Assembly (NCBI RefSeq): GCF_036345255.1
Contig: NZ_CP107783.1
Coordinates: forward strand, 7,052,001 to 7,116,000
DNA: 64,000 nt
Direction of reading: 5' to 3'
Origin: Streptomyces sp. NBC_00569
Lineage (GTDB): Bacteria; Actinomycetota; Actinomycetes; Streptomycetales; Streptomycetaceae
A program made the translations under genes and the position numbers. The notes under the pieces are model-generated. The model made no database searches, was not told the origin of the DNA, and saw only the letters and a program-made list of their open reading frames with translations. Numbering within the stretch: position 1 is the first letter of the stretch; the number at the start of each line of letters is the position of its first letter. This document shows positions 7,484-29,648 of the stretch, piece after piece.

Positions 7484-8731
7484 TCATGACGTGAGCAGGG
7501 TCTCGTCGCGGGCCGCCCGGGCAGGGGGCGCCTGTTCGCGCGTCCGCGGCTCGGTGACCGTCTGCCGCCACAGGCGCCGGGCGGCGGTGAGGGTGGCGGA
7601 GACCAGCAGGCCGTTGCGTACGAGGATCAGGGCGAGGCCGAGTCCGTCGCCGTACACGACGTGTCCGAAGCCGAGCGGGAACTCCAGGAACGTCACGAGG
7701 GACGCCGCCACGACCAGGCAGGCCGGCGGCGTCATCCGGCTCGCGGAGAACACGGTCGACACCGCGGCCAGACCGGTCAGCCACAGCATGTACTGCGGGC
7801 TGATCACCCGGCTCGTCGTCGTGAACAGCAGCACGGCGACGAACGCCGCGTCCGCGAGCGTCCCCGGCGCCCAGGCCCGCGCCCTCAGCCGCCACATCAG
7901 GAGCCAGGCGAACGCGAGCAGCGTCAGCACCTGCGCGACCACGCTCACGACGTCCACGTAGGGGCCGAGGAACTCCATCGAGCCGTAGTTCAGCCCGACG
8001 GAACCCGGCCAGCCGAACTGCCGCGCCACGTGGAACACCAGCGCGCCGAGCGACTCGACCTCCGTGCCGCGGTCGCGCTGGGAGGTGACGAAGTCGAGTG
8101 CGCCCGGCATCGCCCCCGCGAAGGCGACGACCAGAGCGCCGGCGGTGAGGGCCGCGCTGCCCCAGGAAACCCGCGTGACACGGCCGCGGCGGGTCCCGAG
8201 GAGGAGGAGCAGGGGCCACACCTTCAGCAGCGCGCCGAGCCCCGTGAGCGCCCCCATGACGCGCGGATGCCGGGCCCCGGCCAGCAGCGCGGCCCCCGCG
8301 ACCGCCGTGACCATGACGTCGTAACGGGCGTACGCGGTCGGACCGAGCAGCGGTACGCCCGCGACCCACACCCACGCCCCGCGCCACGACCTGCCGGGCC
8401 GCCCGCCCGCGTGCACGAGGAGACCGAAGGTGAGCGCGTCGGAGAGGAGAGCGAGCACGAAGAACGCGGTGGCGTAGGACAGGAACGGCAGGAGGGCGGG
8501 GGAGAGGATCGCGCCCGCGGCGGCGGGCGGGTACTGCCACGTGACGTCGTCCAGCGGGAACGTGCCCGTGCGCAGGACCCCGTACCAGTTGCGGTAGATG
8601 ACGGAGACGTCGCTCGTCACGTCGGGACCCGGGACCGTGATCACCTTCAGGACGCACAGGAGGAGCAGCGCCCTGGTCGCGGCCCACACCAGCACCGCGG
8701 GGACCGGGATTCTCGGCATCATTCGGGCCAT
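7484..8731 (-). CDS. GT87-type (DUF2029) polytopic glycosyltransferase
   Basis: A 415-residue membrane protein with about ten hydrophobic segments and the features of the GT87/GT-C mannosyltransferase family: an acidic first periplasmic loop (PDVTSDVSVIYRNWYGVL), the WQYPPAA motif, the LLKVWPLLLL helix and RVISPQYMLWL near the end. The mycobacterial relative family adds mannose from polyprenyl-phosphate-mannose to lipomannan/PIM glycans. It diverges from the PimB'-like gene at 8801, which supports a common role in phosphoinositide-linked glycans, although the acceptor in Streptomyces is not known. Start at 8731 (MARMMPRIP); no clear RBS, and the inner Met codons are alternatives. Confidence 0.85.
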   Translation of the reverse strand: MARMMPRIPVPAVLVWAATRALLLLCVLKVITVPGPDVTSDVSVIYRNWYGVLRTGTFPLDDVTWQYPPAAAGAILSPALLPFLSYATAFFVLALLSDALTFGLLVHAGGRPGRSWRGAWVWVAGVPLLGPTAYARYDVMVTAVAGAALLAGARHPRVMGALTGLGALLKVWPLLLLLGTRRGRVTRVSWGSAALTAGALVVAFAGAMPGALDFVTSQRDRGTEVESLGALVFHVARQFGWPGSVGLNYGSMEFLGPYVDVVSVVAQVLTLLAFAWLLMWRLRARAWAPGTLADAAFVAVLLFTTTSRVISPQYMLWLTGLAAVSTVFSASRMTPPACLVVAASLVTFLEFPLGFGHVVYGDGLGLALILVRNGLLVSATLTAARRLWRQTVTEPRTREQAPPARAARDETLLTS

Positions 8732-8800
8732 GATGCCGGGCAGAACTGTGCAGGGGCCATGAAGCACGGCCAACCGGCGCGTTAGGTACTGTCGGCGGCG

Positions 8801-9943
8801 ATGCACAAGACCCTGATCGTGACCAACGACTTCCCGCCCAGGCCCGGTGGCATCCAGGCGTTCCTGCACAACATGGCGCTCCGCCTGGACCCCGAGCAGC
8901 TCGTCGTCTACGCCTCCACCTGGAAGCGCACCCGGGAGGGCGTCGAGGCGACCGCCGCCTTCGACGCCGAGCAGCCCTTCACCGTCGTGCGCGACCGTAC
9001 GACGATGCTGCTGCCGACGCCCCGCGTCACCCGGCGCGCGGTGGGCCTGCTCAAGGAGCACGGCTGCACGTCGGTGTGGTTCGGCGCGGCCGCCCCGCTC
9101 GGCCTGATGGCTCCGGCGCTGCGCAGGGCCGGTGCCCGGCGCCTGGTGGCCACCACGCACGGGCACGAGGCCGGCTGGGCGCAACTGCCCGCGTCCCGCG
9201 GGCTCCTGCGCCGCATCGGAGAGTCGACGGACACGATCACGTATCTCGGCGAGTACACGCGGTCGCGGATCGCCACCGCCCTGACGCCCGCCGCGGCGGG
9301 CCGGATGGTGCAGCTGCCGCCGGGTGTGGACGAGAAGACGTTCCACCCCGGCTCCGGCGGCGACCTGGTGCGCGAGCGGCTCGGACTGACCGACCGGCCC
9401 GTCGTCGTGTGCGTCTCGCGGCTCGTGCCGCGCAAGGGGCAGGACACCCTGATCCTCGCGATGCCGCGGATCCTGGCGGCCGTCCCGGACGCGGTGCTGC
9501 TCGTCGTGGGCGGCGGCCCGTACGAGAAGGAGCTGCGCAAGCTCGCCGCGGAGACGGGCGTCACCGACTCGGTGCGCTTCACGGGGGCCGTGCCGTGGTC
9601 GGAGCTGCCCGCGCACTACGGGGCGGGCGACGTGTTCGCCATGCCGTGCCGGACCCGGCGCGGGGGCCTCGACGTCGAGGGGCTCGGCATCGTCTACCTG
9701 GAGGCGTCGGCGACGGGCCTGCCGGTCGTCGCGGGCGACTCCGGCGGCGCGCCGGACGCGGTGCTCGACGGGGAGACGGGCTGGGTCGTGAAGGGCGGCG
9801 ACGCGGAGGACTCCGCGGACCGGATCATCACGCTCCTCGGCGACGCGGAACTGCGGCGGCGCATGGGGGAGCGGGGGCGCGAGTGGGTCGAGGAACGCTG
9901 GCGGTGGGATCTGCTCGCCGAGCGGCTGCGCGGGCTGTTGTGA
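8801..9943 (+). CDS. pimB: GT4 family glycosyltransferase, PimB'-like
   Basis: A 380-residue GT-B enzyme. The N-terminal signature TNDFPPRPGGIQ is the one of PimB' (second mannosyltransferase of phosphatidylinositol mannosides) in mycobacteria and corynebacteria; the C-terminal domain has SRLVPRKGQDTL and the donor-binding E-x7-E motif in EGLGIVYLE followed by GDSGGAPDAV. It probably transfers mannose from GDP-mannose to PIM1 at the inner face of the membrane. TAGGTA at 8783-8788 lies 12 bp before the ATG and no Shine-Dalgarno is visible, so the message may be nearly leaderless. A strong terminator follows. Confidence 0.85.
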   Translation: MHKTLIVTNDFPPRPGGIQAFLHNMALRLDPEQLVVYASTWKRTREGVEATAAFDAEQPFTVVRDRTTMLLPTPRVTRRAVGLLKEHGCTSVWFGAAAPLGLMAPALRRAGARRLVATTHGHEAGWAQLPASRGLLRRIGESTDTITYLGEYTRSRIATALTPAAAGRMVQLPPGVDEKTFHPGSGGDLVRERLGLTDRPVVVCVSRLVPRKGQDTLILAMPRILAAVPDAVLLVVGGGPYEKELRKLAAETGVTDSVRFTGAVPWSELPAHYGAGDVFAMPCRTRRGGLDVEGLGIVYLEASATGLPVVAGDSGGAPDAVLDGETGWVVKGGDAEDSADRIITLLGDAELRRRMGERGREWVEERWRWDLLAERLRGLL

Positions 9944-29021: not shown

Positions 29022-29576
29022 TCAGTGGTGGTACCGGTGCACCACCGCGTGGCCCTTGCCGCGGCCGATCATCCACTTGTTGACCGGCGTGGTCACCACG
29101 AAGGCGATGGCCAGTGAGACCGCAAGCGCGCCCCAGAACAGGCCGTCCGACAGATGGGCGTCCATCGCGTTCGGCCACAGCGCGATCACGCCGTTGTCGA
29201 TCAGCTCCATGACGGCGATGGACAGGGTGTCCGCGGCGAGCGCGACCCGGAACGCGGTCCTGAAGTCGACGCCGGCCTTCAGGACGCTGCGCAGCGTGAG
29301 CGAGTAGCCGAAGAAGAACGCGAGCACGATCGCCAGGATCATCGTCGGCGTGTTGCCCCAGCCGAGCGCCGTGCCGATCACCATGCCGAGGACCTCGCCG
29401 ATGGCGCATCCCGCGAGGCAGTGGAGGGTCGCCTGCGCGGCCATGGACCAGCTGACCTTGCCGAGGCCGTGCCCGGCGTGGGCGTGATCGGTGCGGGTGT
29501 GACCGGCGTGTTCGTGCTGCTCGTGGTCTGCGTGCTGGTCGTGCTGCTCGTGTCCGGCGTGCGTCTCGTGCTGCAT
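29022..29576 (-). CDS. DUF4396 membrane protein with His-rich N-terminus
   Basis: A 184-residue protein. The first 40 residues contain about 15 His plus Asp/Glu (HAGHEQHDQHADHEQHEHAGH region), a typical metal-binding tail. Four hydrophobic segments follow: AAQATLHCLAGCAIGEVLGM, MILAIVLAFFFGYSLTL, ADTLSIAVMELIDNGVIAL and GLFWGALAVSLAIAFVVT; a HLCAGC-like Cys-x3-Cys pair sits in the first. The ATG at 29576 has GGGGGAA before it. The promoter at 29620-29648 contains a perfect CsoR-type palindrome, so copper (or a related metal) is the likely inducer. Function unknown; metal buffering or transport is inferred. Confidence 0.85.
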   Translation of the reverse strand: MQHETHAGHEQHDQHADHEQHEHAGHTRTDHAHAGHGLGKVSWSMAAQATLHCLAGCAIGEVLGMVIGTALGWGNTPTMILAIVLAFFFGYSLTLRSVLKAGVDFRTAFRVALAADTLSIAVMELIDNGVIALWPNAMDAHLSDGLFWGALAVSLAIAFVVTTPVNKWMIGRGKGHAVVHRYHH

Positions 29577-29619
29577 GAGTTCCCCCAACGTCAGAGAGCG
29601 GTTCCTGTCGCTGACAAGA

Positions 29620-29648
29620 ACCGTATACCCCCTGGGGGTATTCCTCAA
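29620..29648 (-). promoter_or_regulatory. DUF4396 promoter with CsoR-type operator
   Basis: On the minus strand TTGAGG (29643-29648) and TACGGT (29620-29625) are 17 bp apart. The spacer region carries the 17-bp perfect palindrome ATACCCCCTGGGGGTAT (29625-29641, plus strand). This fits the operator class of CsoR/RcnR-family repressors, which are released by Cu(I) in S. lividans. The operator sits 16 bp before the end of the nfo gene region (29657) so the unit is compact. Confidence 0.85.

Follow-up and report, generated by a model that had tools for sequence, protein, structure and literature searches.

The window analysed here is a stretch of 64,000 nucleotides of contig NZ_CP107783.1 from Streptomyces sp. 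NBC_00569. On its minus strand, positions 29022..29576 were found by translation and Pfam profile to encode a DUF4396 membrane protein of 184 amino acids with an ATG start. In a profile search PF14342 matched residues 42-175 with an E value of 3.9e-45 and a score of 154.1 bits against a Pfam cut-off of 27, and in a Pfam scan DUF4396 was the sole Pfam family in the protein, HMA and ATPase domains being absent. The deoxyribonuclease IV gene nfo (30532-29657) precedes it in the same orientation, and an Oxidored_molyb gene on the opposite strand and a bacterioferritin gene lie 3' of the DUF4396 gene.

The 80 nt which separate the nfo stop from the DUF4396 ATG contain, on the minus strand, a -35 box TTGAGG (29643..29648), a spacer of 17 nt (29642-29626), a -10 box TACGGT (29620..29625) and the motif GGGGGA (29581..29586), which from its sequence is a probable ribosome-binding site. 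Across 105 Streptomyces loci the -10 box is conserved and the -35 box moderately so. Within this promoter lies the CsoR-type operator ATACCCCCTGGGGGTAT (29625..29641, either strand), a TAC-N9-GTA dyad assigned from its sequence and from the CsoR consensus given in the accessible text of PMC3902906. It is palindromic at 16 of 17 positions, all but the odd base in the middle. The palindrome begins one base past the -35 box, runs through the rest of the spacer and reaches one base into the -10 box. A sequence-only reading of this DNA had described the promoter TTGAGG-17-TACGGT on the minus strand, with a 17-bp palindrome between and into its boxes, and every element was present at that spacing. 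No second copy of the operator was found in the window on either strand at up to three mismatches, where shuffles averaged 0.06 matches.

The operator in the host genome and in Streptomyces

The exact core TACCCCYNRGGGGTA was found at three places in the 10.3-Mb host genome, upstream of the window gene, of copA and of copZ-copA. Allowing one mismatch added three further places, namely before csoR, at a second site beside copA and at position 8067579. At up to two mismatches there were 46 matches versus 57 for a reversed control, per strand; the core is thus no commoner than its control at this level, and weaker sites alone carry no meaning. The one-mismatch TACCCCTTCGGGGTA site at G000:C1:8067579-8067593 (L022) is probably a chance occurrence.

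Two CsoR-family genes were identified in the host genome. The protein encoded at G000:C1:5460725-5460967 (L020) has the Cys...His-x3-Cys pattern of a Cu(I)-type CsoR, as read by eye, and its nearest NCBI model is RicR, at 134 bits and under the cut-off of 175. The second protein (L021) keeps the two Cys but is missing the His, and is of the persulfide-sensing CstR type. Its gene adjoins one whose product has a rhodanese and a metallo-beta-lactamase domain, and a gene for a TauE-like permease (persulfide dioxygenase and TauE assigned by eye). The stretch separating the CstR-type gene from the dioxygenase/rhodanese gene has two N8 palindromes (L021 4472 and 4506). The csoR, copZ-copA and copA promoters carry N9 sites, as does the window gene. 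In the accessible text of PMC3902906 the S. lividans CsoR operator is TAC-N9-GTA with G/C tracts, and in that of PMC7533328 the site of the persulfide-sensing relative in S. coelicolor is ATACC-n6-GGTAT, equivalent to TAC-N8-GTA. The window site has the TAC-N9-GTA dyad, the C and G tracts and the promoter overlap of a streptomycete type 2 CsoR operator, and lacks the 8-base spacer (ATACC-n6-GGTAT) of the CstR type. In this genome the two CsoR-family regulons seem to be kept apart by spacer length, N9 versus N8. The proposal that the palindrome is a CsoR-type operator is supported by its N9 spacing, by the Cu(I)-type CsoR in the genome and by the site type shared with csoR, copA and copZ-copA, and the DUF4396 gene is very probably under copper control via CsoR.

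At E 0.001, PF14342 was detected in 107 of 150 Streptomyces genomes, 106 of them over the Pfam cut-off, and, across the phylum, in 32 of 296 genomes (27 over the cut-off). After seven partial or weak rows were dropped (three from G085, two from G142, and one each from G112 and G043), 120 of 127 Streptomyces rows were counted. An N9 site was present no more than 450 bp before the conserved core in 105 of these 120 genes and the N8 form in one; as background, 450-bp tiles over 30 loci carried a site in 32 of 210 cases, the true sites of those loci included. There were 27 distinct operator sequences among the Streptomyces loci, in which the arms are fixed and the centre is free. In a profile over the 105 loci the operator and the -10 box were the informative parts, the -35 box was less so and sequence outside them carried hardly any information, and the operator kept its place within the promoter throughout. 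In most of 30 listed loci, for which starts were chosen by hand, the operator ended about 50 nt before the start. Absence of the palindrome before orthologues had been named in the sequence-only reading as evidence that would speak against it; the site was present before 105 of the 120 Streptomyces genes and before 27 of the 51 actinomycete genes among the best 80 named loci.

Fifteen of the 120 Streptomyces genes were without the full operator, three of them distant paralogues (25-27% identity) and 12 members of the core family. Two of these 12 (L175 and L244) have degenerate sites, and the surroundings of the other 10 were read. In L254 another gene precedes the DUF4396 gene in its unit, which diverges from a copZ-copA-csoR unit, and a CsoR-type site separates the two; in L259 the DUF4396 gene follows a DUF305 gene. 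Four loci (L255, L256, L261 and L262) keep the gene order of the window, with nfo adjacent and bfr near, and are missing the operator, which suggests that one branch has lost copper control; in L261 the 3' end of nfo overlaps the DUF4396 gene, whose product has no His tail. The remaining four gave no clear clue, one of them (L260) having a weak MerR-like neighbour. The idea that operator-less genes had lost their His tail was not upheld, as some had lost it and others keep 7-18 His. For the Streptomyces plasmid copies L083 and L088, the incomplete annotation listed no copper gene.

Regulatory sites and neighbours beyond Streptomyces

The named-genome sample comprised the best 80 loci of a longer list found with the pattern HC[LYV][TAS]GC[AGS][IA]G[EI]. 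Sorted by record title these were 51 actinomycete, 22 proteobacterial and seven other loci, some of which end at contig ends. A CsoR-type site was scored when 8 or more of the 10 tract positions matched within 300 bp, and a MerR/CueR-type site when 12 or more of 14 consensus positions matched within 700 bp. Among these best 80 loci, CsoR-type sites were found upstream of 27 of 51 actinomycete genes and one of 22 proteobacterial genes, against a background of 8 in 2166 windows drawn from these loci; the one proteobacterial gene (L110) has csoR next door. MerR/CueR-type sites showed the reverse distribution, upstream of 14 of 22 proteobacterial genes and one of 51 actinomycete genes, against a background of 2 in 856 such windows. 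A looser MerR-type background of 12 in 330 was set aside because its random windows could include true sites. A related MerR-type pattern occurred at 0 to 5 places per genome across 22 genomes, giving 27 in total versus 11 for a reversed control. Five of the 14 proteobacterial sites lie about 100 bp or less from the match (L106, L120, L127, L134 and L153). The other nine lie some 250-690 bp upstream, so that some may serve an intervening gene, and a small HMA-type gene does stand between the distal site and the DUF4396 gene in L090, L091 and L092 (the last by eye). Two unrelated sensor families, CsoR and, in Proteobacteria, MerR/CueR, seem to be wired to DUF4396 genes.

Copper genes were sought around the same best 80 loci by tblastn, which returned copA in 20, copZ in 16, csoR in 13, DUF305 in 16, a secreted His-rich protein in nine and a CueR-like protein in eight; some copZ matches may be to HMA domains within copA, and some CueR matches to other genes of MerR type. 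Grouping of open reading frames without any query, at 82 loci, agreed with this, the commonest groups being copA in 18, CsoR in 13, an HMA protein in 12, a DUF305-like protein in 12, a MerR-type regulator in nine and the secreted protein in eight, with DUF4396 and antisense frames set aside and group labels given by eye and tblastn. In a density control, 25 genomes (159.5 Mb), hand-picked from the best 80 loci and thus non-random, contained 44 CsoR-family genes, from which at most about 0.3 would be expected in 80 stretches of 12.5 kb, compared with csoR in 13 of the best 80 loci. Copper ATPases over the NCBI cut-off were present in all 25 genomes, usually several in each, and a nearby copA is therefore weaker evidence than a nearby csoR.

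On the Kineococcus plasmid pKRAD01, where two perfect N9 sites precede the regulator gene, the order is csoR-type regulator, HMA protein, P-type ATPase, DUF4396; Ensifer pT173e has the order DUF4396, copA, cueR. The NCBI CueR cut-off was passed by six of seven neighbouring regulators tested (L081, L089, L090, L127, L142 and L153); the seventh, at L107, is nearer to MerR and passes no NCBI cut-off. In the Kineococcus copper cluster (L082) a glycosylhydrolase of the F510_1955 family is encoded after DUF4396 at 8652-9584, and homologues were near DUF4396 in three of the best 80 loci.

None of the seven loci from other phyla among the best 80 (Nitrospirae, Zixibacteria and Ignavibacteria) bore a copper sign within the sequence covered, and the family may have a role beyond copper, for example in Nitrospirae. 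In three Nitrospirae loci (L104, L114 and L126) DUF4396 has a VOC/glyoxalase-like gene, recognised by eye, as its neighbour, and the surroundings showed no copper gene. A haloarchaeal plasmid (L085) has genes for plastocyanin-like copper proteins within about 7 kb of DUF4396; the annotation around another haloarchaeal copy (L086) contains none of these. An unverified human faecal contig labelled 'Bacteriophage sp.' (L087; MT835530.1, 37332-37769) has a gene for a DUF4396 protein that shares 57.5% identity with one from an actinobacterium, and could be a mislabelled bacterial contig.

The secreted His-rich protein is encoded in the host genome on the minus strand at 2438-3589 of L018 (G000:C1 about 5611437-5612588), divergent from copA, and paired CsoR-type sites lie between the two genes. 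It had no match in Pfam or NCBIfam at the thresholds used, and its best PDB sequence relative, at E 0.89, was taken as chance. It recurs near DUF4396 and appears to represent a second unnamed copper family. In two loci (L066 and L108) DUF4396 and the secreted His-rich domain share a single frame with one additional helix, the identity of the fused domain resting on tblastn in L108 (E 2e-51) and on reading by eye in L066; csoR and copA are close by in L108.

The DUF4396 protein and its relatives

A first structure model made without an alignment was poor (pLDDT 56) and was set aside. The AlphaFold2 model built from 64 sequences has four helices, at residues 43-70, 75-100, 105-133 and 145-174, with a mean pLDDT of 80 and blocks of 86-95 across residues 41-170. 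If the extra helix of the fusions carries the fused domain outward, the C-terminal end of DUF4396 would be cytosolic, and with four helices the N-terminal end would be cytosolic as well. The loop charges fit such an arrangement, the loop between helices 2 and 3 and the C-terminus being positive and the loop between helices 3 and 4 acidic, and we infer an N-in/C-in topology.

Conservation was examined in two alignments, A1 with 17 diverse members gathered without the motif and A2 with 64 rows. The helix-1 motif, H52-C53-x2-G-C57-x2-G60-E61, is encoded on the minus strand at 29394..29423 and is seen in both. In A1 all 17 members had the equivalents of H, C, G56 and G60, and all but one (16 of 17) had the second Cys. 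The invariant polar residues of A2 were T50, H52, C53, C57 and E61 in helix 1, D116, S119, M123, E124, D127 and N128 in helix 3, and N166 in helix 4; since 54 of the 64 rows were found via the helix-1 motif pattern, conservation of helix 1 in A2 is there by construction, and helix 3 is unaffected. The helix-3 motif, D116-x2-S119-x3-M123-E124-x2-D127-N128 (29193..29231, minus strand), was invariant in all 64 rows. From A2 the locus L089 was omitted owing to a stop in the matched stretch, and its rows begin at the match, so that tails may be underestimated. The acidic residues are not kept in haloarchaeal and other distant A1 members and may mark the copper-wired branch. On our reading of the helix, C53 and C57 are one turn apart and G56, G60 and G64 form a Gly-x3-Gly run.

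The sequence-only reading had drawn attention to a Cys-x3-Cys in the first helix, which is C53-x3-C57 and is retained with both Cys in 16 of the 17 A1 members. Its count of about 15 His within the 40 N-terminal residues was too high; the tail (residues 1-40; 29457..29576, minus strand), predicted to be cytosolic, contains 12. The tail stressed in that reading is variable, and the hallmark of the family is the intramembrane motif. Tails of the 105 operator-bearing Streptomyces genes contain from 1 to 21 His, and the tail is long in Streptomyces, shorter elsewhere, and short or absent in some members.

Searches for relatives of DUF4396 gave little. Foldseek with the DUF4396 model returned no match at E 0.001 or better, a VIA fold comparison gave middling Z scores for helical bundles, and the best PDB sequence relative (E 0.39) was taken as chance. 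In a Pfam scan of the 17 A1 members at E up to 1, MerC (PF03203) was absent among the seven families listed, and a CbtA match in one of the 17 (E 0.026) was taken as chance. A MerC profile comparison was abandoned because the two weak MerC hits, in one of 22 genomes, were too few for a profile. The PADLOC defence library gave no match. In the literature searched DUF4396 appeared only in passing, and the 2012 JBC paper on S. lividans CsoR may contain an earlier mention. The accessible text of PMC6414726 lists genes called putatively CsoR-repressed and cites that paper. Nothing on DUF4396 was found in the accessible parts of a CsoR survey of gut Firmicutes (PMC4938975) and of a study of Kineococcus copper proteomics (PMC2928746).

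Proposed function of DUF4396 and known systems

Taken together, the best explanation, and one we hold to be reasonably probable, is a membrane protein of the CsoR regulon which takes cytosolic Cu(I) and passes it outward to an acceptor or to CopA. By analogy with known CsoR proteins, at low copper CsoR would occupy the spacer operator and block transcription, and on binding Cu(I) would release it so that the DUF4396 gene is expressed. The product would be a four-helix inner-membrane protein with both ends predicted to be cytosolic, whose His-rich tail would collect copper and in which H52, C53, C57 and M123, together with the acidic E61, D116, E124 and D127, could provide a site or a path for Cu(I) within the bilayer. 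Outward transfer might then take place to an extracytoplasmic acceptor, for example the secreted His-rich protein beside copA, or to CopA. The parts of this explanation differ in strength. The operator and its conservation, the association with copper genes and the conserved residues are seen in the sequences, whereas CsoR binding, the topology, Cu(I) binding and outward movement are deduced. A direct role of the protein in handling copper is likely. Outward movement or hand-over, rather than buffering, stands a little short of an even chance. More tentative still is the suggestion that DUF4396 is a new class of ATPase-free, oligomeric four-helix Cu(I) exporter or hand-over protein, lined by HCxxGCxxGE and DxxSxxxMExxDN and with a Gly-x3-Gly spine.

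The strongest competitor, which we nonetheless consider rather unlikely, is a membrane-anchored Cu(I) buffer or chaperone whose tail and helix sites bind cytosolic copper and hand it to CopA while moving nothing. Small size, a His-rich tail and clusters with copA and copZ would all suit such a protein, and the mycobacterial PacL proteins (accessible text of PMC9374683) are a precedent for small membrane partners of P1B pumps. The DUF4396 fusions are equally compatible with a tethered buffer. What a tether would not need is the set of conserved acidic and Cys/His residues in two helices, and the tail, which is the natural buffer, is the variable part of the protein.

It is improbable that the protein gives protection from a consequence of copper excess, such as damaged cofactors, aldehydes or membrane stress, with copper itself left untouched. 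The seven unlinked loci of other phyla and the VOC-like genes adjoining DUF4396 in three Nitrospirae, all among the best 80 loci, would be accommodated by this explanation, but the soft metal ligands conserved in the membrane and the fusion to the His-rich secreted domain that accompanies copA would not. Control by a persulfide sensor of the CstR type, and hence a role in sulfur stress, is very unlikely: the genome does have such a regulator beside a persulfide dioxygenase/rhodanese gene with similar sites, but CstR sites are N8, the DUF4396 sites are N9 in 105 and N8 in one of 120 Streptomyces loci, and the recurrent neighbours of DUF4396 are copper genes. That the palindrome is an accident or the nfo terminator, and no operator, is scarcely credible, for although it starts about 15 nt past the nfo stop codon and perfect 8+1+8 palindromes are not rare per se (10 in the window), its one-base centre gives no hairpin loop, no T-run follows it, and the site type recurs across genomes with a varied centre and a constant promoter position.

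Were the proposed outward hand-over of copper correct, CsoR in Actinomycetota and CueR in Proteobacteria would each have recruited an ATPase-free DUF4396 path on their own, and this path would occasionally have been fused to its acceptor. The usual account of bacterial copper handling comprises a sensor, a chaperone, an ATPase and storage. Here two unrelated sensor families appear to link a widespread family of unassigned function to the copper response. DUF4396 thereby gains a concrete, testable job, as a likely extra member of a regulon thought to be small, and its conserved intramembrane motif offers a target for mutation. According to the accessible text of PMC6414726, copper steers differentiation and antibiotic production in Streptomyces, which gives a missing copper component practical weight.

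Among known systems, the CopZ/CopA export pathway has its operator type in common with the window gene here and often its neighbourhood elsewhere, but DUF4396 has no HMA or ATPase domain and no known energy source. MerC-type mercury uptake proteins are small membrane proteins with a Cys pair in helix 1. MerC is, however, absent from the families of the 17 A1 members, and the wiring of DUF4396 points to copper excess. The Csp3 copper storage proteins are, like DUF4396, copper-related four-helix proteins; as far as the available sources describe them they are cytosolic with Cys-lined cores, whereas the window protein is predicted to lie in the membrane and has two Cys. The persulfide-responsive ScCsoR circuit of S. 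coelicolor (accessible text of PMC7533328) has a repressor of the same family and a similar palindrome, but there the spacer is of 8 bases and the genes are sulfur genes, compared with the 9-base spacer and copper genes of the window gene. The S. lividans CsoR regulon of csoR, copZA1 and copZA2 has the same operator class as the window gene, and its counterparts in the host genome carry such sites. DUF4396 is not among the three targets named in the accessible text of PMC3902906, and the window gene would be a further target of this regulon.
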